Of a DNA stretch of 26,390 bases, positions 3-26,390 are shown piece after piece (position 1 is the stretch's first letter; every line of letters begins with the position of its first letter). This DNA comes from Vairimorpha apis BRL 01. Taxonomy: Eukaryota > Microsporidia > Nosematidae. The position numbers and the translations under genes were made by a program. The DNA lies in contig KE647289.1 in NCBI GenBank assembly GCA_000447185.1, positions 12,840 through 39,229 of the forward strand, given 5' to 3'. Under the pieces are notes generated by a model. The model ran no database searches. It saw only the letters and a list, made by a program, of their open reading frames with translations, and was not told the origin of the DNA.

Positions 3-203
3 AGTTTTGTTTGTGCACTTGTTATAGCACTTAAAACACTTAGTCGATTTACACGTGACTTTATGTTAGATGCAGTTCCATATTCATCTGTAAGCATACG
101 TGATATACGATGGATTTGGTCTTTTGGTGGGATTATTAGTGATATCATTGATGTTCCGTTACCTGTTGAATGTTTTAAATATTTTAAGAGTTTTTTAGTT
201 TAA
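3..203 (+). CDS. 3' end of an unidentified gene (partial)
   Basis: An open frame enters the window in phase at base 3 and ends at the TAA at 201-203, giving 66 codons. The peptide is ordinary globular sequence with mixed hydrophobic residues (for example [20 protein letters not shown]) and ends KYFKSFLV. It contrasts with the low-complexity proteins elsewhere in the window, so I read it as the C-terminus of a conserved protein. I do not recognise the family. No signal peptide or start can be judged because the 5' part lies outside the window. The gene converges on the deubiquitinase gene (tail to tail, 1.2 kb apart). The strand becomes C-free 20 bases after the stop. Confidence 0.6.
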
Positions 204-223
204 ATATTTTTATATCGTCTTGC

Positions 224-615
224 ATTTTATTATTTTTGAGGGGGTGTTTTAATTTGATGTGTGGATATTATTTTATGTTATAATATTGTTATTATTTAAT
301 GTTATAGTGTGATTATTATTGTATGTGGTTATATTGTTGTATTGTATTATATGATGTATTGTATAGTGTAATTATTATTGTGGTAATGTAGTTATATTGT
401 ATTATGTATTTATATTGTTGTATTGTATTAATATATATTGTTAATGTATTTATATTGTATAGTGTTATTTTTAATGTGGTTATATTTTTAATGTAGTTAT
501 TATTATATGTTGGAGTGTGGATGTATAATTATTTGGGAGTGTTGTATTATATGTGAGTGTAGATAATTATTGTATTGTGTAATTATTATTGTTAATGTAA
601 TTGTATTGTGGAAAT
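224..615 (+). other. 392-bp tract with no cytosine on the + strand
   Basis: Reading every base from 224 to 615, I find no C. In 241-600 I count 72 G and 0 C. The tract is made of loosely repeated T/G/A words such as tattgttaatgta. It continues with only three further C (616, 665, 828) to about 909. It starts just after the stop of the upstream gene. It does not look like a simple microsatellite, and no known element is recognised. Confidence 0.9.
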
Positions 616-676
616 CTATATTGTAGTTTTAATTGTATTGTTAATGTAATTGTATTGTGGAAATCTATATTGTAGT
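588..676. repeat. Tandem duplication, 49-bp unit
   Basis: The segment from about 588 is repeated from about 637, including the distinctive words attgtattgtgg and aaatctatattgtag. The offset is 49 bp and the second copy is incomplete. The unit lies in the C-poor tract and contains two of its three C residues, at equivalent positions. Confidence 0.8.
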
Positions 677-1040
677 AATGTAATTATATAGGAATGTAAA
701 TTGTTATTGAATAAGAATTAAATATAAATGGAATATAGTTATATTGTATTTTGTAATTATTATTGTTAATGTAGTTATATGTGTGTATTGATTGTTATTA
801 TAATTTAATGTAGATGGTGTGTTGTATCGTATAAATATATGTAGTATATGTATATTATAAGATTTTTATTGTATATTATAATAGTAGTAATTAATATATT
901 ATATATAAACATCTTATAGTAAAGTGCTATTCTTTATTCTTTATACATCGTTTTTAATCTACCGTTATTTAATAAAATGAACTGAATAAGAATTTATGAT
1001 GTATTATATTAATAATAGGTACAGAAATCTATTATGATAC

Positions 1041-1191
1041 TTATAAATATAATAAAAATTGTTATTATAGTATATAAATATAATAAAAATTGTTGTTATA
1101 GTGTATAAATACTAGTATTATACTACTATAGTATATAAATATAATAAAAATTGTTATTATAGTATATAAAGATTAATATTATACTACTATA
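1041..1191. repeat. Degenerate tandem repeat of about 60 bp
   Basis: The word tataaatataataaaaattg occurs three times from about 1042, 1073 and 1133, each followed by ttattatag or a one-base variant. The last two form part of a unit of about 60 bp that also carries a second half (tattatactactatag) at about 1117 and 1178. It is a non-coding minisatellite-like array just before the deubiquitinase 3' end. Confidence 0.75.
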
Positions 1192-1437
1192 GTATTAAAT
1201 ATAGTATACATTAATACAATACAAATATATAAAAATTTCATAAATTAAAATATACACATAATATATTAATACTTTACAAAGTAAATTATATACATTAATA
1301 CTATAGTATATATATACAACATTATACCAACAATATAAATACATTATATATAACACATTATATAAATACATATATAATCAAATATAATAAATAACTATAA
1401 TAATATAAAAATACATATATAATCAAATAATAATACT

Positions 1438-3873
1438 TTAATGATAACACAAAATATAAGACTGATCAAAATAATCAACACTCTCTTCACTAATCTTCTT
1501 ATCATTAATTAACCATACTTTACCTATATTACTATTATTATTACCTATATTACCACTATTCTTACTATCATAATCTTTACCACTACTAACACTCTCCCTT
1601 ACCAACCACATATAATGCCCACTATCCATATTCATCCCACTATGAACAACAGCCCCACAAACATTATAAACTCCACAACTCCGATTCATTTTCTTATATT
1701 CATCAATAACATTCCCACAATCACTAAAAGATTCCTTATCATGTAAACTTAATCTAATCTCATCTTCATTATAATTTTTCTTAAGTTCATCAACAAAATA
1801 TTGTGCCAATTTAGGTGCTTTAATAAATTTAGTTAAATTAATTTCATCTACAGTTAAACTTGAACTAATTTTAATAAACATATTATTTTCGTATCTACAT
1901 CTATTTACAGTTATAAGAAGATATAAAGGTAAATTTAGTATCTTGTTTGATATTATTTTGTCGTATGTACAGTCACATTTTGTTATCGTATCTTTGAAAT
2001 ATGAAGATAGACAGTCTGTTATTGTGTTATTGAATGAAGTGAATAAAAGAGTTATGTCGTCTGTTGTTTGTGTTTTTGTTTTACAGTTGTCACAATATAC
2101 TGTATTTTCTATTTTGAATGTAAAGAGGTTTGTGATTGATGGGAATTTGTTTAAGAATTCTGCTTCTTTAAGGAGTTGGATGAAGATTATTAAGAATTCT
2201 GTTGCGTCGTGTTGGACGTTTTTTTCGAACATTGGGTATTCTTTCCATATTAATTTGAGGAAGTCTATAATTGATATTGGGTTTTTATTATTTGTGGTGT
2301 TGGTATTGTTAGTAGATGAAGGGAAATTTGAAGATGTGTTATTATTTGTGAAATTATTAGTGGAGGATGAAGATGTTGTTATTGTATTCTCTTCATAAAC
2401 ATTCTTATTATCTACAGTATTATTAATATTATCTATAGTACTACTATTATTATCTATACTAGTTTTTTCAACACTTTTCTTATCATCTCCACAACTTCCA
2501 CTCTTCACATTATCTCCATTCTTTTCATTATTACAATTATTATTATCTATACTAGTTTTTTCAAGACTATTACTTTCACCATTTACATTATCTCTACTCT
2601 TCTTACCACTAATATTACCATCTCCATTCTTCTTACCATCTACACAATCACTACACTTCTTACCACTAATATTACCATCTCCACTCTTCACACTAGTTTC
2701 ACCACTATTATTCTTACCATATCTACTTTCACCCCCTATTATTCCATTTTTACACCTTCTCATCTCATTAAATATCCTACACACTTGACAATAAACACAC
2801 AAAAACGGATTAACTTGATCACAAACACGAAAATGCATATCCCACTCAATATTCTCTTTATTCCCTATAAACCCTATTAACTGCAACACACTAGACATAA
2901 AACACGTATTCCCAGCATTTTTAATTCCTAAAAACGGACTACAATTAATTACCTCTTCATCGTCTTTATATTGTACATCTATATACGAATTACCTTGTTT
3001 ACTAAAATCAGTACATTTAATTTTAGTTTCACAGAACGGGTTTTTAATAAAATCTTCACATTTGTAACAGAAAGTGTCACACGTATATTCTGGTGTTATT
3101 GAGTTTGTTAATACGAAAATTGGATGATTTTGTTGTTTATAATGGTGTAAAGCGTGACCGTTGCCTTCTATACCATATTGGACACGTCCACAACCTAAGA
3201 ATCCACATGTGAAACATATGTAGAGGTGGTTCTTGATGTCACATTCTGTACATTTGAGTACTTTGTGTGATGGTATTTTTAGTTGTGGAGCTAGTGGTAT
3301 GTGGAGAATGTGATCGCATTCTTGTTCAGTGTCTTTGAAAATTATTTTTTCGTTGAAGTTGGTGCATTTTTGGATTAAATTTATTTGTGTTTTGAGTGTT
3401 TCTATTTCTGGTGGAGATAAGATTTTGCTTGTTATGTTTAGAGATTTGGTGCCTTTAACGTGGAATATATTTGTGTGGGTTAATGAAGTTGTGTTGTTTG
3501 TTTTTAAAGATGTACAAATTTTAGATTTACAATTATTATTTTTGCAGTTAGTAGATTCTTCATTATTATTTTTGCAGTTAGTAGATTCTTCATGACATTT
3601 ACATTCTCCTCTATTATTACATTCACATTCTTTATCATCATTACATTTATTACACTCTAATCCATTATCACATTCACACTCCACTTCATTCACATTTCCA
3701 CACTCTTTTTCATTTCCACACACTCCTCCTTCATTTTTACTGGTCTTACTCAAATGCAATCCAATATGATCATCACATAAAGATAATTGACATGTACATA
3801 CATTCAATCCATCTTCAATATTCTTGTAACAATAGCAACATTTATCTCTGAATTTTAGTATTTCAAATTTCAT
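1438..3873 (-). CDS. Ubiquitin carboxyl-terminal hydrolase, Ubp14/USP5 (isopeptidase T) type
   Basis: This 811-residue cysteine protease should cleave ubiquitin chains; Ubp14/USP5 enzymes disassemble unanchored polyubiquitin in cytosol and nucleus. What is seen: an N-terminal Cys-rich variant zinc finger (about 11-40); Cys-rich low-complexity sequence (50-120); a ZnF-UBP domain (about 186-272; C186, H188, C208, C211, C220, C223, C228, H240, H250, with CGRVQYG and GNGHALHH); the catalytic Cys box KNAGNTCFMSSVLQ (C324); the QHDATEF box (554-560); a zinc ribbon (C594, C597, C633, C635); and the His box SGHYMWLVRE (H753) followed by LIND (790-791). A Ser/Asn/Lys/Gly-rich insertion (about 376-530) sits where USP5 carries UBA domains; I recognise none here. 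Length is close to the family norm of roughly 800. The ATG is supported by CCC 11 nt upstream. Codon choice toggles between blocks inside the ORF (see findings). All core catalytic motifs look intact. Confidence 0.93.
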   Translation of the reverse strand: MKFEILKFRDKCCYCYKNIEDGLNVCTCQLSLCDDHIGLHLSKTSKNEGGVCGNEKECGNVNEVECECDNGLECNKCNDDKECECNNRGECKCHEESTNCKNNNEESTNCKNNNCKSKICTSLKTNNTTSLTHTNIFHVKGTKSLNITSKILSPPEIETLKTQINLIQKCTNFNEKIIFKDTEQECDHILHIPLAPQLKIPSHKVLKCTECDIKNHLYICFTCGFLGCGRVQYGIEGNGHALHHYKQQNHPIFVLTNSITPEYTCDTFCYKCEDFIKNPFCETKIKCTDFSKQGNSYIDVQYKDDEEVINCSPFLGIKNAGNTCFMSSVLQLIGFIGNKENIEWDMHFRVCDQVNPFLCVYCQVCRIFNEMRRCKNGIIGGESRYGKNNSGETSVKSGDGNISGKKCSDCVDGKKNGDGNISGKKSRDNVNGESNSLEKTSIDNNNCNNEKNGDNVKSGSCGDDKKSVEKTSIDNNSSTIDNINNTVDNKNVYEENTITTSSSSTNNFTNNNTSSNFPSSTNNTNTTNNKNPISIIDFLKLIWKEYPMFEKNVQHDATEFLIIFIQLLKEAEFLNKFPSITNLFTFKIENTVYCDNCKTKTQTTDDITLLFTSFNNTITDCLSSYFKDTITKCDCTYDKIISNKILNLPLYLLITVNRCRYENNMFIKISSSLTVDEINLTKFIKAPKLAQYFVDELKKNYNEDEIRLSLHDKESFSDCGNVIDEYKKMNRSCGVYNVCGAVVHSGMNMDSGHYMWLVRESVSSGKDYDSKNSGNIGNNNSNIGKVWLINDKKISEESVDYFDQSYILCYH
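3533..3592 (-). repeat. Perfect 30-bp tandem duplication inside the deubiquitinase gene
   Basis: Two identical 30-bp units (3533-3562 and 3563-3592) encode the decapeptide EESTNCKNNN twice, in the Cys-rich linker before the ZnF-UBP domain. The frame is kept. Being identical, the duplication is recent or has been homogenised. Confidence 0.95.
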
Positions 3874-3884
3874 ATATTTTTTTA

Positions 3885-3887
3885 GGG
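3885..3887 (-). promoter_or_regulatory. CCC start signal of the deubiquitinase gene
   Basis: On the coding strand CCC lies 11 nt before the ATG within an A/T-only surrounding (aaaccctaaaaaa). Microsporidian genes commonly carry CCC-like motifs close to the start codon, marking a very short 5' UTR. Confidence 0.6.
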
Positions 3888-4369
3888 TTTGAATTTTATT
3901 TTTGTTATGAAACTTATTTCAGGTTTGTTTTAGGAAAGGGGAAGTGTTATAGGAGAGTGTGTATGTTATAATATATATATATTATATATTATATATGTAC
4001 AATGTATTGTATATTAGATATATTGAATTAATATAGTATATATGTATTATTAATATATTTATTATATATGTGTATTATTATTAATATATTTATTATATAC
4101 CATAATATATTTATTATTATATATGTATGTATAGATTTAATATATATATATGTATTGTATTTTAGATATATTGAATTACAAAAATTAAGATATGAAAAGG
4201 ATATCAAAATTTAGATGGTTATTAAATAGATATGGATAAAATAGATTATTGGAAATAATTAATAGAAAGAAATATTTATATATGAAAATATAAATACACA
4301 TTATAGAAATATAAATAATAAATGTATGTGATAGAAAAAGTTTTATTAACTTTGCAAATATACAATATT

Positions 4370-4446
4370 ATATATTTTTTAATATTAGAATATTTTTTAT
4401 ATTAGAATATTTTTTATATTAGAATATTTTTTATATTAGAATATTC
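4370..4446. repeat. Tandem array, 17-bp unit, about four copies
   Basis: The unit agaatattttttatatt is repeated head to tail about four times (first copy slightly diverged), ending before attcatttaaa. It lies in non-coding DNA. Confidence 0.85.
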
Positions 4447-4642
4447 ATTTAAATAAACATTTTATAAAATATTTAAATAAAATAAATTTAAATTTTGTTA
4501 AAAATATAAGGTTTCTGAAATATGTAGTTTTTAAAAAATAAATTAATGTTTAAAGTAATTTAAATAAACTGTTTTATATATTTTATATTTTTTAATTTAA
4601 GTTAAATTATGAAATTAAATTTAGTAAAAAATAATATAATAA

Positions 4643-4770
4643 TATAACTTTATTAACTTGATAAAAACTATCTTATTTATTATTTAATTCGATCTAAATA
4701 TTTAAATATCAATTTAACCTAAAACTTTATTTATTAAAAACTATCTTACTTATTATTTAATTCGAACTAA
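4643..4770. repeat. Imperfect tandem duplication, offset about 75 bp
   Basis: The words aaaaactatctta and tattatttaattcga occur in the same order at about 4664-4692 and 4737-4765, with a few substitutions between copies. Non-coding. Confidence 0.65.
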
Positions 4771-4832
4771 ATTCGGAATAGATAATAATTTTAGACACTT
4801 TAAAAACCATTCAATAATATTCTAAAATATAA

Positions 4833-5029
4833 TTTTACACACTTAAAAAATTATTTAATATATTCTAACAATTTAATTAAAAAATCTTCACAGACTTTTA
4901 ACTAAATAAAAATATTCACAAAATATTCTAACATTATAAATTTACACACTTTAAAAATTATTTAATATATTCTAACAATTTAATTAAAAAATCTTCACAG
5001 ACTTTTAACTAAATAAAAATATTCATAAA
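4833..5029. repeat. Direct duplication of about 90 bp at 107-bp offset
   Basis: The segment tattctaacaatttaatt at 4861 recurs at 4968. Similarity extends from about 4833-4922 to about 4940-5029, including the shared words atcttcacagactttt and aactaaataaaaatattca. Near-identical, so fairly recent. Confidence 0.85.
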
Positions 5030-5099
5030 ATAGTAACTAATTTATAAATTACGAAAATTTTTAACATAAATAAAATATTAACTAATTATTTATTCATTT

Positions 5100-5218
5100 A
5101 ACTAAATTAAACAAACACCATTAACTTTTAATTATTTACCAAATTAAAATAAATAAAATATTAACTAATTTTTTAATTATTTAACTAAATTAAACAAACA
5201 CCATTAACTTTTAATTAA
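5100..5218. repeat. Direct duplication, offset about 83 bp
   Basis: The segment beginning aactaaattaaacaaacacc and running on through ttttaatta occurs at about 5100-5134 and again at about 5183-5217. Related degenerate words continue to about 5480, just behind the stop of copy A. Confidence 0.8.
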
Positions 5219-5832
5219 TAACACTTTACTTTATTAACTAAATTAAATAATTCTATTAAAACTTTTAATAAATTCCTCAATTATCCAACACATTAAACAA
5301 AAACATTAATGTTTTAATTAATAACACTTTACTTTAAAAACCAAATTAAAATAAATAAATCTTTTAATTATCCAACAAATTAAATTAAAAAATAAACTTA
5401 ACTTTAATAACACTTTATTTTATTAATCAAATTAAAATAAATAAAACTTTTAATAAATTTTTTAATTATCCAACAAATTAAACAACTCATCTCTACATTC
5501 CCGTATAAGAACCCTCAACTCTTTCTTTAAATAATTTTTTGATCTATCAACAAAATTAATAATTTCTTTACGTACATTTTTATGTTTCTTTAAATTAATA
5601 CTTCTTTTTATTTTTTTTTAAATAATTTATTAGTTTTTACAACGTAATTTGATAATGAATTTTTATATTTTTGTAGTGCTTTATTGATATTAATTTTTGT
5701 ATTTTGTATAAGTTTTTGGAGTTCTTTGGTACTAAATGATAGAAGTTCTTTGTTTTTTGTGTTTATTTCTTTGAAAAAGATGGTGTTTGAATTGGTTGGG
5801 TTTTTGTTTTTTATTGATTTGTCTTTGATTAG

Positions 5833-5964
5833 TTTATCTTTACTTAAATTATTATCATTTATTAATTTATCTTTTGTTAAATTATTATCATTTATTAATT
5901 TATCTTTACTTAAATTCTTATCATTTATTAATTTATCTTTACTTAAATTATTATCATTTTCTAA
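5833..5964 (-). repeat. 33-bp tandem repeat, four copies, in copy A
   Basis: Four head-to-tail 33-bp units encode an 11-residue repeat of the type LINDNNLSKDK. The unit is a multiple of three, so the array preserves the local frame. Confidence 0.9.
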
Positions 5965-7478
5965 TTTATTTTTATTATCATTTATAAATTTAATTTTTGT
6001 TAATCTATCTTTATTTTCTTTAATTAGTTTATTTTCTTTTTTATTAATTTTTCTTTATTTGTTAACTTATTATTTTTGTGCCTTATTGATTTAGATTGGA
6101 TATCATTTATTAATTTAGATTCCATATCGTAAATAGATTCATATTCTTTATCTGTTATTAGATTATTATTTTCATTTGTATTTAAATTACTGTTTAATAA
6201 TTTGGATTCCATATCATATATAGATTCAAATTCTTCGTCTGTTATTATATTATTAGATTCATTGATTCTTAATTGATTTAGAGTCGTTTATGGATTTAGA
6301 TTCTTTCATTGATTTAGAGTCGTTTATGGATTTTTGTTCTTCATCATTTATAATATTAGAATCGTTTATAGATCTACGTTTTTCATCATTTATAATATTA
6401 GAATCGTTTATAGATTCTCCATCATTTAAAATATTAAATTCCCCATCATTCAAAAAATTAAATTCATTTTCACTAAATCTACGTTCTTCCTCACTTATAA
6501 CTTCATATTCACCATCCACTTGTGTGCCCAAATTTTTAATAATCATATCAACAATACTTTTACTCCCTTTCCTATTAATCTTACCATCATCACAAAATTT
6601 TAAATACAAACACTTCTTACTAACAATATTCTCATACAAAAACCTAATAACAGCATTCTTATATAAATTAAATTCAGAAAAATTTAATACAACACTTTTT
6701 TCTAAATTTAATTTACTTTTACTTACAGAATTATTAGTGTTTTGTACTAAATATTTTTCAATAAAAGATTTACCATCAAGTTCAATTTTTACTAAATTGA
6801 AATTTATTACAGCGTAATTTAATATACAACTTTTTAATATGCATTTATAATTGTGTGGGGTGTTAAGTAATCTTTTCATTTTTAGGTTGAGTTTAGCTAA
6901 TATTTTAGTTATTTCATTTTTTAGAAATGGTGGGATTTTTTGTTTGTGTTTTGATTTTTTTAATGATAAGATTTTATTGAAAGAAGTGGTTAAGTTTGTT
7001 GAATTAGTGTTATAAATGTTTTTTAATATATTATTATTTGAAGTTGATATATTGTTGTTTGAAGTTAAGTTTGTTGAAGTGGTAGTTAATGTATTATTAA
7101 TATTTGGATCTTTTTTATCTGATTCTAATATATTGTTGTTTGAAGTTAAGTTTGTTGAGTTGGTTTTAATTTTTTTTTATTTGGATCTTTTTTATTTAAA
7201 TTTAGTATATTGTTGTTTGAAGTTAAGTTTGTTGAAGTGGTTTTAATTTTTTTTTATTTAAATCCTTTTTATTTGAAGTTAATATATTGTTGTTTGAAGA
7301 ATTAGTAAAATTAATGTTTAAATCTTTTTTATTTGAAGTTGATATATTGTTGTTTAAAGAATTGGTAAAATTAATGTTAAGAACTCTTTTATTCAACTTT
7401 TTATTAAAGGTAAATGTAAAATTTTGTGATAAATCTGAATTATTAATATTTTGATTAACGGAATTCTTATTTGAATCT

Positions 7479-7805
7479 AATATATTGTGGTTTGTTGAGT
7501 TAGTATTATAAATATCTTTTAATATATTATGGTTTGAAGAATTTGTATTATTAATATCTTTTAATATATTGTGGTTTGAGGCAGATGTATAATTTTGTAC
7601 ATCTTGAACTGTTTTTAATAAATCTGTATTACTAATATCTTTTAATATATTATGGTTTGAGGTAGATGTATAATTTTGTACATCTTTAACTGTTTTTAAT
7701 AAATCTGTATTATAAATATCTTTTAATATATTGTGGTTTGATGTAGATGTATAATTTTGTACATCTTGTACTGTTTTTAATAAATCTTTATTATAAATAT
7801 CTTTA
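7479..7805 (-). repeat. Nested 81-bp and 42-bp tandem repeats in copy A
   Basis: The anchor word aatatatt(g/a)tgg lies at 7479, 7521, 7563, 7644 and 7725. This gives two 42-bp units followed on the + strand by three 81-bp units. The long unit encodes 27 residues (KDIYNTDLLKTV.DVQNYTS.SNHNIL). The short unit is the same repeat with the middle 13 residues removed. All are in frame. Confidence 0.93.
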
Positions 7806-7952
7806 ATATTAGATCCATTTTTATTAGAAATTATATGATTAAAATTAGACGTAAAATTTTGTGACCCTTGAACTGTAGTTAATGTACTTATTAAACATAT
7901 CAATATAATAACAAATAAACTTATTATAAATGTCAATATTTTCATAGGATAA

Positions 7953-10595: not shown

Positions 10596-10852
10596 TTAAC
10601 ACTAAACCTACCATGACCAGTCAAATGACCGTTTTAAATTTTATAAACACTATGTTATTAATTATTTTACCACCATAAAACTTCATGAAGTTTATTAAAA
10701 TATGTATACAATTGTTTTTTTAATCTTTAATATTTTTCTGATTATTTAATTTTTGAGAAAAGTATGTTGTCTGCTTTAACTAACATCACCGATCATATGA
10801 CTAGTGATATTAGGAATAGTTATACATGCAGTGTTGGTAGGTTTAGAGTTAA
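10596..10852. mobile_element. piggyBac-like MITE (non-autonomous, 257 bp)
   Basis: Both ends carry TTAA, the target site typical of piggyBac transposons (10596-10599 and 10849-10852). The termini are inverted repeats: TTAACACTAAACCTACCA at the left and, read inward, TTAACTCTAAACCTACCA at the right, 17 of 18 identical. The inside is AT-rich, non-coding and has a small stem (atcac/gtgat). No transposase is present. Superfamily assignment rests on TTAA plus the terminal repeats only. The right part of this element recurs at 16554-16700 beside copy C. Confidence 0.65.
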
Positions 10853-11123
10853 ACAAATTTATCTTACATTTTTTCTATTTACTCTTATTTAGACAAATAT
10901 ATTTTATATCTTTCATATAAATGTAGAAAATATATAAAACTGTTATTTTATAATAAAAATAATAAACACTTAAATATTTTATTATAACATACTAATAATT
11001 AAATTCTTTATAATAAAAATAATTAAAACTTAAATATATTATTCAACAAATATTTTTTAAATTCTTTGAAAAAATAAATAATCAATTTTTATAAAAAACA
11101 AAGATTAATTAACACTTAAAAAT
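10853..11123. other. 3' flank of copy B
   Basis: Bases 10853-10925 match the 3' flank of copy C in inverted orientation. The rest (about 10926-11100) is an AT-rich insertion absent from C, with an internal degenerate duplication (ataaaaataat.aa.acttaaatat at about 10963 and 11007). No gene is seen. Confidence 0.6.
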
Positions 11124-12379
11124 TTATTTTAACATATAATCAATTATATCCTTTTTATATTTCCTAAAATTTATTCTCAGTTCTTTTTTTATTTCAATCT
11201 CGACATCATTAACATATTTCGAAGCTTCTTTACGCTCTTTTTCGTGATTTGTAAAAAAGACACTTTCATTTATAAATTTTCTTAAACATACATTACTTTC
11301 AACAACATAATTTGACAACAAATTTTATATTCTTGCAAAGCATCTTGAATATTATTCATTACATAATTATAAACTCTCTGAAATTCATCTCGATAATTAG
11401 ATAAAAAATCTTTTTTTTCTGCAACATTTATTGAATTGCCTTCTTTTTGTGTGATTGATTTTATTTTTTCTTCACCTTCATTTGACATGACATTTTTCTT
11501 ATCATTTAACTTATTTTCTACTTCTGAGTTTACATAAAATTTTCCAATTTCAAACTCGCTAAAAAAATTTGTTTCTTTTCCTTTTTTAGCTTGTAAACTC
11601 TTGGAAACTTCTTCTTTTAAACTTTTTTTCTTTGAATCAAATTCTTCTAAGAACAATAAAATTACTGAAACCAAATTCAATTTATTTTTTTCCCAAATTT
11701 TTCCTGAGCTTTCCCATATAAAATTCAAGCCATTTAAGAATGATATTATATCATACATTTCTTTAAAAGAAATATAATCACATCTTACATTACTACTCAA
11801 AAATTCACCTACCTCTGTGCTATAACGGGTTTTAAATAAACTGTTTAAATCTTTTTTCATTTTAGTTATCGTTGTATCAACAATTGTTACACTATCAATA
11901 CTTTTATTTAAATTTGAATGTCTATTTAATAAAATAAGATTAAATTTAGAAGTCAGGTTTCGAGTTTTATGAATTTCTTTAGATATATTTTTATCATTAA
12001 TATTTTTAAGCCTTAAATCTTTACTTATAGAAGTATTATTAAAAGAAGTGTTCAACTCTTGTGAGTTATCAAATCTTTTAGAATTATTTGTATCAAGAAA
12101 ATCTTGAATAATTGAACGCTTATTTGGATTATTTTTTTTATCGGAAAAAATACAATTAGAGAAAAAATCAAAATCTTCTGGTTCCTTAATTAGTTTTTGC
12201 AAATTTCCATAAGGAATATCAAGATTACTTAAACGTTCATTTGGATCATGTTTTTTATTTGATATAACACGAATAAAAGATGTAGTCAAATTTTGTAATC
12301 CTTGAACTGTTTTAGACGTAGAAATTAAAAACAACGCAATAAAAATACATAAACTTACAATAGTAGCTAATACTTTCAT
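11124..12379 (-). pseudogene. Secreted-protein family copy B, one frameshift
   Basis: The first ORF (12379 to 11282, 365 codons) starts with a signal peptide (MKVLATIVSLCIFIALFLIS..KTVQG). It carries an Asn/Lys/Ser-rich middle, then a conserved block (SSNVRCDYISFKEMYD...GKIWEKNKLNL), and runs off its family frame at EYK. The continuing frame (SNYVVESNVCLRKFINESVFF...IKKELR) ends at 11124. The break is one missing A in the short A run at 11323-11326; copy C has five A there. Restored, the length would be about 418 codons, against about 415 for C, which confirms the join. An A8 run at 11411-11418 is in frame, so not every A-run is affected. The mature protein looks helical and charged, with no family I recognise. 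It could be a pseudogene, a homopolymer sequencing error, or a gene that depends on slippage. Confidence 0.85.
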
Positions 12380-15191: not shown

Positions 15192-16437
15192 ATGAAATTA
15201 TTAGCTACTATTATAAGTTTATGTATTTTTATTGCGTTGTTTTTAATTTCTACGTCTAAAACAGTTCAAGGATCACAAAATTTGACTTCATCCATTAGTC
15301 GCGTTATGTCGAAAAAAAGAAAAGATCCACATGAAAGTTTAAATCTAAGTGTTGATGAAATTTTTTTTGGAGATATAGGGAAAATATATAGGGAAGCACA
15401 AGGTTATAATTCTACATTTAACTGTATTTCACAGGATAACAAAAATAGTTCGAGTAAACTTTCAATTGTTCAAAATAGTCATGATAAAAATAATTCGAAA
15501 ACTACTGATGAGTCACAAGACTTAATTTCTACCTTTAATAATACTTCTTCTATTCAAAGTTTAAGTGTTCAAAATGTTAATAATAAAAATATGTCTAAAG
15601 GAATTCTTAAAGCTCAAGAAATGACTTCTAAATTAAATCTTATTTTATTAAATAGAGAGTTAGATTCATGTAAAAATGATAAAATTCAAAATATTAGTAA
15701 TACAATACTAAACAAATTGAATAAAAATATGGACAGTTTGTTTGATGAACGTTATTATAAAGCGTCAGATGTTTATATGAGTAGTAATGTAAGAAGAGAT
15801 TATATTTATTTTGAAGAAATGTATGATAGAATACCATTTTTACATGGTTTGGAAATTATATATAAAGGTTCTATAAAAATTTGGGAGAAAAATAAATCAA
15901 ATTTAGAAGAAAAAATCATATTAGCATTAACAAAATTTGATTCAAAAAAAAATCGATAAGAGAGCAAATTTTAAAAAAATTACATGTTAAAAAAGGAAAA
16001 GATTTTAATTTATATAAGAAAATTGTTAGCGAAAAATTTAATGTAAACTCAGAAGAAGAAAATAAGTTAAATGATAAGAAAAATAAAGACGAAGAAATAA
16101 AATCAATTACTAAAAAAGAAAGTGATATTTTAACAGTTGCAGAAGATGAAGAAATTTTATCTATTGGTCGAGATAAACTTCAGATAGTTTATAATAATGT
16201 AATGAATATAATTCATGATGCTTTGCGAGAATATAAAAATTCGTTGTTAAATTATGTTGTTAAAGGTAGTGTATGTTTAAGAAAAACTATTGATGAAAGC
16301 ATTTTTTTTAAAAATCACTCAGACGAACGTAAAAAAGCTAAAAATTTTGTTACAGATACAAAAATTGCAGTAAAAAAGAATTAAGAGAAATTATTAAAGA
16401 ATGTAAAAAGGATTTGATTGATAATCTGTTAAAATAA
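15192..16437 (+). pseudogene. Secreted-protein family copy C, two frameshifts
   Basis: The first ORF (15192-15959) has a signal peptide almost identical to copy B's (MKLLATIISLCIFIALFLIS..KTVQG), an Asn/Ser-rich middle, and the conserved block SSNVRRDYIYFEEMYDRIPF. It then stops in DSKKNR after an A9 run at 15944-15952. The frame that follows (starting SIREQILKKLHVKKGK) stays open to 16384 and matches B. It is broken again at 16372-16377 in gtA-AAA-AAG; the last 17 codons (ELREIIKECKKDLIDNLLK) end at the TAA 16435-16437 in the third frame. Both breaks are one A short, and the joined length would be about 415 codons. The C-terminal 80 residues are a charged, probably helical domain shared by A, B and C. 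The short ORF at 16202-16384 is part of this gene, not a separate one. Function is unknown; secretion is inferred from the signal peptide. Confidence 0.85.
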
Positions 16438-25005: not shown

Positions 25006-26390
25006 ATGTATCTAAAAATATTTTCTATTTGTAATATTTCATTAATTGTGGCAAATAGACTTGAACAAGAACAAATTGATTTAAAATCTTGCAAATATGA
25101 ATTAGATTTTGATAAAACTTTTAAAGCTAGTACAAAAGAGAATGTATATGTTGAAAAAATTAAGAATGAAAATAATTTTCATAATTCTAATGAAGAAAAT
25201 TCTTCAGAAATAGATGATAACAATATGTCTCAATTTAATAAAGATATTTCTTCAGAAAGTGATGAACACTCAACATTTGAATCTAATAAAATTAAAGCTC
25301 AAAATGAACTTCATATTAATAGAATAAATTTTAAATTTATAGAAGATAATAATCTAAGCCATGATAGTATAAAAATTAAACCTTATAATATTAAAAAAGA
25401 TACTGATTATTTTAAATATGAACAAGATGGAAAAATTAAAATTAAAAAATATCAAAAACCCAGTGCTGAGTTAGATAGTAATATATTTGGAAAAGATGTT
25501 ACTGATGCAGATAATGAGAATCAAGGAGGAAACACTGGTGAAGGTAACAATACGGCGGGAAATGATGGAAATAATACTGGAGATAACACTGGTAACAATG
25601 GTGGTGACAATACTGGAGATAATACTGGTAACAATGATGGAGATAATACAGGTAACAATGATGGAAATAATACTGGAGGTGATAATTCCGGTAACAACGA
25701 TGGAGATAATACAGGAGATAATACAGGTAACAATGATGGAGACAATGCGAGAGATAATACAGGTAACAATGATGGAAATAATACAGGAGATAATACAGGT
25801 AACAATGATGGAAATAATACTGGAGATAACACTGGTAACAACGATGGAAATAATACTGGTGGCAATGATGGAGACAATACAGGTAACAATGATGGAGACA
25901 ATGCGGGAGATAATACAGGTAACAATGATGGAAATAATACAGGAGGTGTATAATTCCGGTAACAATGATGGAGACAATGCGGGAGATAACACTGGTAACA
26001 ACGATGGAAATAATACTGTGGCAATGATGGAGACAATGCGGGAGATAACACTGGTAACAACGATGGAAATAATACTGGTGGCAATGATGGAGACAATGCG
26101 GGAGATAACACTGGTAACAACGATGGAAATAATACTGGTGGCAATGACGGAGACAATGCGGGAGATAACACTGGTAACAACGATGGAAATAATACTGGTG
26201 GCAATGACGGAGACAATACAGGAGGTAATGACGGAGACAATACAGGAGGTAATGACGGAGATAATACAGGAGGTAATGATGGAGATAATACGGGAGGTAA
26301 TGATGGAGATAATGCTGGAGATAACACTGGTAACAATGATGGAGATAATACTGGTGACAACTCAAATGAAAATATGATTACTCTAAAACT
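25006..26390 (+). CDS. Secreted Asn/Gly/Asp/Thr repeat protein (3' end outside window)
   Basis: The ORF starts at 25006 with a short hydrophobic N-terminus (MYLKIFSICNISLIVANR), plausibly a signal peptide. About 150 charged Asn/Lys/Glu/Ser-rich residues follow (to about 25500), then a long repeat domain built from NNDGDNTG, DNTGNNDGN and NNTGG-type units. The literal ORF stops at 25951-25953. That stop results from one extra base near 25949; a one-base deficit near 26018 brings the frame back, and the original frame then stays open to the end of the window (last residues NSNENMITLK). Over about 22 codons between the two sites the repeat peptide continues in the next frame. So it is either a gene with two compensating indels, two sequence errors in a repeat, or a truncated protein of 315 residues. 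The family is unknown; a surface or spore protein is inferred. The window cuts the gene, so its length is unknown. Confidence 0.78.
25528..26362 (+). repeat. Coding tandem array built from 9- to 36-bp units
   Basis: The array consists of gataatac(a/t)gg(t/a)-type and aacaatgatgga-type words combined into higher-order units. A 66-bp block (ggcaatgatggagacaatgc onward) is repeated four times between 26020 and about 26220 with nearly no change. A run of 24-bp units (ggaggtaatgacggagacaa type) follows at about 26220-26310. Such recent homogenisation makes the exact copy number and indels in the assembly doubtful. Confidence 0.9.

Follow-up and report, generated by a model that had tools for sequence, protein, structure and literature searches.

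On part of one contig of the microsporidian Vairimorpha (Nosema) apis, the balance between G and C on a given strand reverses every few hundred bases, and it does so straight through intact genes. The stretch in question, called the window here, comprises 26,390 nucleotides (KE647289.1, labelled C182, positions 12840-39229; assembly of 5.96 Mb in 223 contigs) and carries an open reading frame (ORF) for a deubiquitinase that is crossed by such blocks, mostly 0.16-1 kb in length. We call a block K where the + strand is rich in G and T, and M where it is rich in A and C. The order and placement of the switches between K and M suggest an origin in which the blocks would be a fossil footprint, left where double-strand breaks recurred at fixed points and were repaired after resection, a reading that we regard as evenly balanced between right and wrong.

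Skew blocks in two islands

The pattern is real, and it is larger than the first-pass annotation of this DNA had it. All seven hand counts given there are exact: G72/C0 at 241-600, G3/C24 at 1201-1440, G10/C94 at 1441-1800, G85/C24 at 1981-2340, G6/C98 at 2401-2760, G84/C41 at 3061-3420 and G9/C66 at 3601-3840. The blocks had been placed at 224-3887, where they are indeed present, but within the window the tract reaches from ~165 to 7597, and it is joined by a second island. These two skewed tracts, at window ~165-7597 and at L005:639-6985, ~29 kb further along the contig (L005 being a second locus on C182, and this part of it C182 ~49.8-56.2 kb), emerge from a hidden Markov model (HMM) using G and C alone, which also yielded the direct flips between G-rich and C-rich sequence; a three-state HMM on all four bases picked up mostly coding GC content and was dropped in its favor. 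Block borders and switches were taken from a two-state GC segmentation, with switch widths fitted, and inserts from homolog alignments. The features of the first island are as follows; where no strand is named, the feature has none.

1438-3873, - strand: USP5/UBP14-type ubiquitin hydrolase of 811 amino acids (aa), with Pfam zf-UBP and UCH, crossed by blocks
2278-2745 (2278-2337 and 2356-2745), - strand: low-complexity lineage-specific insert, absent from more than half of seven relatives in the alignment
3469-3738 (3469-3669 and 3679-3738), - strand: low-complexity lineage-specific insert, from the homolog alignment
1525-1590, - strand: third lineage-specific insert, from the homolog alignment, within an M block and without a switch
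165-926, + strand: intergenic K block (G135 C8; AT skew -0.25; two-state GC HMM)
927-1204: weak stretch, a 37-bp M block at 927-963 (G1 C8), then weak K at 964-1204 (G23 C9)
1209-1908: M block over the 3' end and downstream flank of the gene (G21 C132)
1910-2384, + strand: K block in the ORF (G109 C29)
2384-2389: sharp K-to-M switch inside insert 2356-2745, a direct flip with a fitted width of 0 bp
2389-3032: M block in the ORF (G24 C167)
3034-3584, + strand: K region, 3034-3163 (G29 C13) and 3209-3584 (G89 C27), with an M blip between
3164-3206: the 43-bp M blip in this K region (G4 C15)
3584-3588: K-to-M switch inside insert 3469-3669, a direct flip with a fitted width of 94 bp
3588-3848: M block (G10 C71)
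3850-4624, + strand: K block, upstream flank of the gene (G81 C18)
4648-5643: M block, intergenic and then over degenerate ORFs (G18 C127)
5644-5832, + strand: K block (G37 C6)
5838-6336: weak M at 5838-6236 (G20 C37) and short K at 6237-6336 (G18 C7)
6339-6830: M block (G22 C89), crossing ORF 6259-6879 on the - strand
6841-7600, + strand: K block at the right end of the island (G128 C24)

The best solved relative of the deubiquitinase is USP5, and its nearest homologs include UBP14-type proteins of Vairimorpha and Nosema, of which P0002-P0008 measure 543-561 aa; it is on account of its low-complexity inserts that the V. apis protein reaches 811 aa. The whole protein has a single match place in the genome. 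Tandem repeats are frequent in the window, and the switch at 3584-3588 falls where 30-bp units are tandemly duplicated (3522-3593).

The two islands hold 14 direct flips in ~13.8 kb (6 and 8), nine of them K-to-M and five M-to-K. The comparison set consists of 41 control loci, taken from 34 other contigs and from the remainder of C182 and together comprising 218,429 readable bases (loci L050 and L051 overlap). Outside the islands, direct flips number one in the rest of the window (10848/10854) and one, in L023, among the control loci. The former lies between K sequence at 10804-10848 and M sequence at 10854-11815, at the 3' end of ORF 11282-12379. In the ~4% of the genome sampled by the window, L005 and the controls, the pattern is thus limited to these two islands, both on the same contig; there may be more of them elsewhere.

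The second island contains a Bap31-type gene and genes for an SHNi-TPR protein, an Nse3-like protein and a protein that we take to be RPC5-like, no family having matched it. The Nse3-like label stems from a MAGE match that is weak (E 0.009) and falls short of the curated cut-off, and the V. necatrix homolog is named segregation and condensation protein B. The RPC5-like protein (L005:5334-6575) is 99% identical to P0012 of another source (lgn, 3 contigs), a comparison made at the protein level. Between the two there are three visible differences, and data for a strand-wise test of polymorphism may exist. We attach next to no weight to an assembly artefact or contamination as the origin of the blocks: the assembly is a draft in 223 contigs, but the affected ORFs are intact and of Nosema type, and the RPC5-like protein recurs in lgn, which is not established as another isolate.

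Are the blocks a by-product of what the genes encode? The first-pass annotation had held that protein composition does not fully explain them, and had proposed two checks, both of which, once run, bear it out: third-position skew persists with the protein held fixed, and block amplitude is larger than in codon-shuffled versions of the same protein. In the deubiquitinase, third-position G minus C in 30-codon windows spans a range of 25, a value reached by none of 20,000 synonymous shuffles, which average 13.8 and go no higher than 22; the variance of synonymous skew in 30-codon bins is 36.5 against 5.9 (z 19; 0/300 shuffles). Among ORFs of at least 150 codons, this bin test gives p<0.01 for six of the seven from the islands, all but L005:1772-2353 (p 0.26), and p<0.05 for two of 44 controls (0.030 and 0.043), which is about chance level. 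The codon counts reported earlier hold as well, with one small correction: residues 512-631 use GAT 1/GAC 6 and TTT 1/TTC 11, and residues 692-811 GAT 11/GAC 0 and TTT 3/TTC 0, where two Phe codons had been read. Domains were found in seven of ten control ORFs checked (two kinases, an SMC hinge, an RRM, a chitin synthase, a histone deacetylase and a BRCT domain), and these seven genes show no skew heterogeneity (p 0.15-0.89); conserved genes elsewhere therefore need not show blocks.

It remains in favor of protein composition, codon selection or low-complexity repeat expansion that the inserts are of low complexity, that tandem repeats abound, and that the amino-acid contrast is found, to a small degree, in relatives too. 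Nevertheless, we consider this explanation very improbable: for the deubiquitinase it is contradicted by third positions that exceed all shuffles, and the blocks extend into noncoding DNA and into the conserved parts of this gene.

Bases that changed

The skew is strand-coordinated and alternates by block, as had been noted, here in a microsporidian. To see which bases are involved, codons of the seven island ORFs were classed by skew at positions 1 and 2 only, and position 3 was then read. In the controls, C/(C+T) is 0.138 at two-fold pyrimidine-ending codons and G/(G+A) is 0.126 at purine-ending codons, with little change between the G-rich (0.137 and 0.107) and C-rich (0.157 and 0.107) classes. 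In the islands, the same ratios are 0.040 and 0.300 in the coding-strand G-rich class, and 0.500 and 0.056 in the C-rich class. Low C with raised G on the same strand means that A-to-G goes with C-to-T, so that amino-to-keto transitions on one strand are implied to account for both the loss of C and the gain of G. The earlier reading as strand-coordinated C-to-T is hence half of the picture: C-to-T stands, but not alone, as A-to-G accompanies it.

The sequence context of these changes is weak. On the keto strand of noncoding DNA, C makes up 3.5-9% of C+T beside every base, compared to 14-24% in controls; CpA is the most reduced 3' context (~5-fold relative to controls, the others 2-4-fold), a slight lean only, and the neighboring bases show no focus on TpC.

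Strand-coordinated runs of C-to-T are known from repeat-induced point mutation (RIP) and from deaminases with a sequence motif, and the lean to CpA would suit the former. RIP, however, is characterized by C-to-T changes only, in CpA context and in duplicated sequence, and by a RID/DIM-2-type methyltransferase; what we find is C depleted in every context, an implied A-to-G component, a gene found once, and no match to the cytosine methyltransferase family PF00145 in the searched part of the genome. Clusters made by AID/APOBEC-type enzymes are restricted to changes at C and favor a context such as TpC, which is not singled out here. Together, RIP and motif-bound deamination appear highly improbable.

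Order and placement of the switches

K-to-M and M-to-K switches tend to fall in different kinds of sequence. When blocks shorter than 100 bp are left out and a tolerance of 12 bp is allowed, 10/11 K-to-M switches are at non-conserved sequence, and 10/11 M-to-K switches are within conserved coding sequence (descriptive values: Fisher 3.5e-4; circular shift 0.0018). With all block sizes, the counts become 11/13 and 11/13; a tolerance of 0 or 6 bp gives 9/11 K-to-M and 10/11 M-to-K, and 25 bp gives 10/11 and 9/11 (shift p 0.0027-0.0040). Scoring relied on homolog alignments for three genes, treated three other L005 ORFs without alignments as wholly conserved, and covered the window up to 4650, to the right of which gene structure is uncertain. 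As the non-conserved share of the two scored stretches is 63% and 45%, it is the contrast between the two kinds of switch that counts, not the K-to-M figure alone. The intragenic K-to-M switches at 2386, 3586 and L005:4453 are located inside inserts absent from relatives. Furthermore, fitted widths are smaller for the 15 K-to-M than for the 16 M-to-K switches (one-sided p 0.033), with exceptions on both sides.

The blocks are also polarized with respect to the genes. On the coding strand, C prevails over G in the 200 bp upstream of 7/7 island ORFs, and G over C in the 200 bp downstream of 6/7; third positions follow this polarity in 6/7 ORFs over the first 50 codons and in 5/7 over the last 50. 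From upstream to downstream, the pooled skews are -0.67, -0.41, +0.43 and +0.49 in the islands, and -0.03, +0.18, +0.16 and +0.085 in the controls. The flanks of the 44 control ORFs thus show a weak polarity of the same sign (-0.03 upstream, +0.085 downstream), for which a faint genome-wide version or terminator composition are possible sources.

A transcription-linked process, in which gene bodies or short sense and antisense transcripts from open sites expose one strand, would draw on precisely this run of the coding strand from C-rich at the 5' side to G-rich at the 3' side, which most island ORFs and, faintly, the control flanks display. But in the usual transcription asymmetry, which is general to transcribed genes, the non-template strand is mutated and the coding strand becomes rich in G and T near its start, a sign opposite to that of the C-rich upstream flanks. 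In addition, the flips at inserts inside the deubiquitinase and the Nse3-like gene would require extra promoters, and the domain-bearing control genes are homogeneous. We therefore judge a transcriptional origin unlikely.

Other short-range asymmetries come out at the same low level of plausibility; they include numerous local starts of replication, gaps filled in an error-prone manner, and mismatch repair that favors one strand within gene-conversion tracts. Replication-type skews likewise run C>T plus A>G on one strand, and GC content at third codon positions is raised in the islands (0.14-0.26) over most controls (0.09-0.16 in 37/44). However, replication origins bring about an M-to-K change at the initiation point, over a long range; the order they give is the reverse of K-to-M, as is the one expected from non-template exposure at promoters in the gaps. 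Replication starts would accordingly place M-to-K, not K-to-M, at abrupt intergenic points, while most of the intergenic switches are K-to-M, at spacings of 0.4-1.3 kb; known origins are spaced far more widely than ~1 kb. In both order and spacing, the switches are thus unlike origins, and the first-pass annotation had been right to set replication skew aside.

A past burst of strand-coordinated hypermutation, kataegis-like, in one or a few events, for instance during break-induced replication, might explain why there are two tracts only, with C almost wholly lost from one strand in places (0 C on the + strand at 241-600), while the rest of the window and other pieces of C182 are unaffected. 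A single dense event should, however, hit all codon positions, yet the ORFs are intact; K-to-M switches lie mostly at non-conserved sites, and there is no clear deaminase context. We view such a burst as slightly less probable still than the transcriptional origin.

Break repair as a candidate cause

What could produce complementary changes on either side of points outside conserved coding sequence, with amino-to-keto changes of the + strand at the left, as is found here (post hoc)? The scenario we favor, at even weight, is end resection at double-strand breaks. Resection in the 5'-to-3' direction would leave the + strand single-stranded to the left of a break and the - strand to its right. 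The exposed strand would undergo C->T and A->G, either by hydrolytic deamination or by error-prone copying of the damaged strand, and the + strand would become G/T-rich left of the break and A/C-rich right of it. With break points ~0.4-1.3 kb apart, alternating blocks would arise, in which abrupt switches would mark the break points, and blurred ones the zones where tracts from two breaks meet. The break points would be intergenic gaps and unconstrained inserts in genes, in keeping with a preference of breaks for DNA that is open and nucleosome-poor. Recombination at these points, meiotic or otherwise recurrent, would then have made the two islands unusually hot.

There is precedent for this layout, and the statement in the first-pass annotation that no described process is known to give such a pattern in microsporidia was too strong: strand-opposite mutation beside resected double-strand breaks has the same layout (PMC7615360; PMC6786661). 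K to the left and M to the right of gaps and inserts is the order expected from resection, as in human hotspots and yeast clusters (PMC7615360; PMC6786661). At human meiotic hotspots, the flanking mutations are of the C>N and A>N types on the forward strand, whose single-stranded part lies to the left, and of complementary types on the opposite strand (Hinch et al., 2023; PMC7615360). Shared with V. apis are the complementary mutation types flanking a point, including A>G and C>T, and a scale of 0.1-2 kb; our comparison covers these two types, leaving aside C>G and C>A. The human signal consists of rare variants that are in excess when 25,440 autosomal hotspots are taken together, whereas in V. 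apis we see a fixed, near-saturated composition in single genes, from which breaks are deduced (PMC7615360). In yeast, single-switch clusters from bidirectional resection predominantly show mutated C and then mutated G, mutated C to the left and mutated G to the right of the break being the diagnostic order, and multiple-switch clusters occur as well; no such order is seen in cancers, by the account given in that study (PMC6786661). These are induced laboratory clusters of C and G changes made by a deaminase over dozens of kb, unlike V. apis with its implied A>G, lack of a clear motif, blocks of 0.2-1 kb and evolutionary time (PMC6786661).

Two further systems are related in other ways. A high-GC region of gerbils also comprises confined conserved genes of deviant composition, for which changed local recombination was proposed, but there GC rises on both strands and 'GC skew' denotes GC bias, whereas in V. 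apis the asymmetry is between strands (PMC7403616). The chromosome ends of the microsporidian Encephalitozoon cuniculi, the only relevant case among the matches listed in the open-licence literature on microsporidian skew, have an excess of G+T on one strand and some intergenic skew inversions; that skew spans chromosome ends, is ascribed to replication and transcription, and shows no within-gene alternation in the parts examined (PMC4704409).

Several observations weigh against repair of recurrent breaks as the cause. As regards placement, the K-to-M switch at L005:6134 lies 12 bp outside an insert and counts as non-conserved by tolerance alone, and those at window 3163 (bordering the 43-bp block) and L005:1989 are in sequence scored as conserved. 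As regards sharpness, five M-to-K switches are direct flips (3848/3850, 5643/5644, L005:876, 2151 and 4245), and some K-to-M switches are broad (L005:6150, width 814; window 4589, width 565). Both tests were devised post hoc on the same two islands, a small sample, which makes their p values descriptive. Tandem repeats lie within 50 bp of 7/15 K-to-M and 1-2/16 M-to-K switches, an enrichment that is not significant against circular shifts (p 0.10 or 0.26, depending on the filter). Gene polarity has exceptions in the 5' third positions of the deubiquitinase and the 3' third positions of the Nse3-like gene and ORF 6259-6879, and AT skew, which follows on average, has the unexpected sign in 5/15 noncoding pieces. 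On the supporting side, the K-minus-M amino-acid index exceeds that of relatives in the aligned columns of the deubiquitinase (0.40 versus 0.06-0.18 in 7/7), in the RPC5-like protein (0.275 versus 0.007-0.177 in 8/8, the near-identical P0012, at 0.271, left out) and in the Nse3-like protein (0.41 versus 0.105 in 1/1), but this contrast is partly circular, as the blocks were drawn on V. apis' own bases and relatives are expected to be lower. Substitutions in conserved deubiquitinase columns, in counts too small to decide, are 9 amino-to-keto and 9 keto-to-amino in K, and 4 and 10 in M. Finally, the scenario is built on sequence composition, from which breaks and single-stranded DNA are deduced, and it does not account for the confinement to two islands.

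The gene content offers limited guidance here. Spo11 gave no match with PF04406 or PF21180 in the searched part of the genome, a further point against the break scenario, although among 14 control genomes only archaea matched these profiles, whose sensitivity to microsporidian Spo11 is unproven. Searches for repair families returned a uracil glycosylase, one match to a cytidine/dCMP-type deaminase family and pieces of a Y-family polymerase, none of which explains the restriction to two islands. The polymerase domain, at C203:30375-30991 (L050, L051), is split over two matches, one of them with two internal stops, which may reflect an intron, a frameshift or an assembly error. For N. apis, recombination is reported to be low but significant at two of three loci, PTP2 and RPB1, with PTP3 as the exception (PMC4699903), and a sexual cycle in microsporidia has been argued for in an article whose main text does not use SPO11 as a term (PMC12558613).

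Two other features of the window deserve mention. The proteins at 7223-7945 (- strand), 11282-12379 (- strand) and 15192-15959 (+ strand) have in common a signal-like N-terminus ending in TVQG(S/L)QN and match no Pfam family above the cut-off; degenerate frames at ~5460-7200 may be remnants of a member of this group inside the island. At 25501-26100, a purine-rich tandem array coding for GDN/TGN repeats has a GC skew of +0.38 to +0.43 and an AT skew of +0.36. This skew is different in kind, and the repeats and amino-acid content would explain it.

The first-pass interpretation was therefore right in kind and is partly supported; it missed the A>G half of the changes, the polarity of the switches and their confinement to islands. 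Strand-asymmetric mutation beside breaks is a known principle. The open-licence literature searched gave no case in which it is near saturation and fixed in the composition of just a few genes, and earlier description elsewhere is possible. In its strongest form, break repair would imply that two islands have been broken so often at the same intergenic and insert sites that C>T and A>G on the resected strand approach saturation; they would then shape the codon and amino-acid content of conserved genes and perhaps make inserts grow at the break points, a proposal that we hold at somewhat less than even confidence.

Should break repair prove to be the wrong cause, a strong, local and polarized mutational asymmetry would still need one. 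If it is the right one, such mutation would have become the main force on base composition at these loci, and a fossil map of breaks could be read from a single reference sequence, giving break sites, the reach of resection and the identity of the damaged strand at single-gene resolution in an organism that is hard to cross. The islands would then rank as extreme hotspots of recombination, in a group for which the existence of sex is a matter of long debate, and microsporidian recombination would become testable by population sequencing. It would also carry a warning, as local protein divergence and low-complexity inserts could stem from repair rather than from selection.

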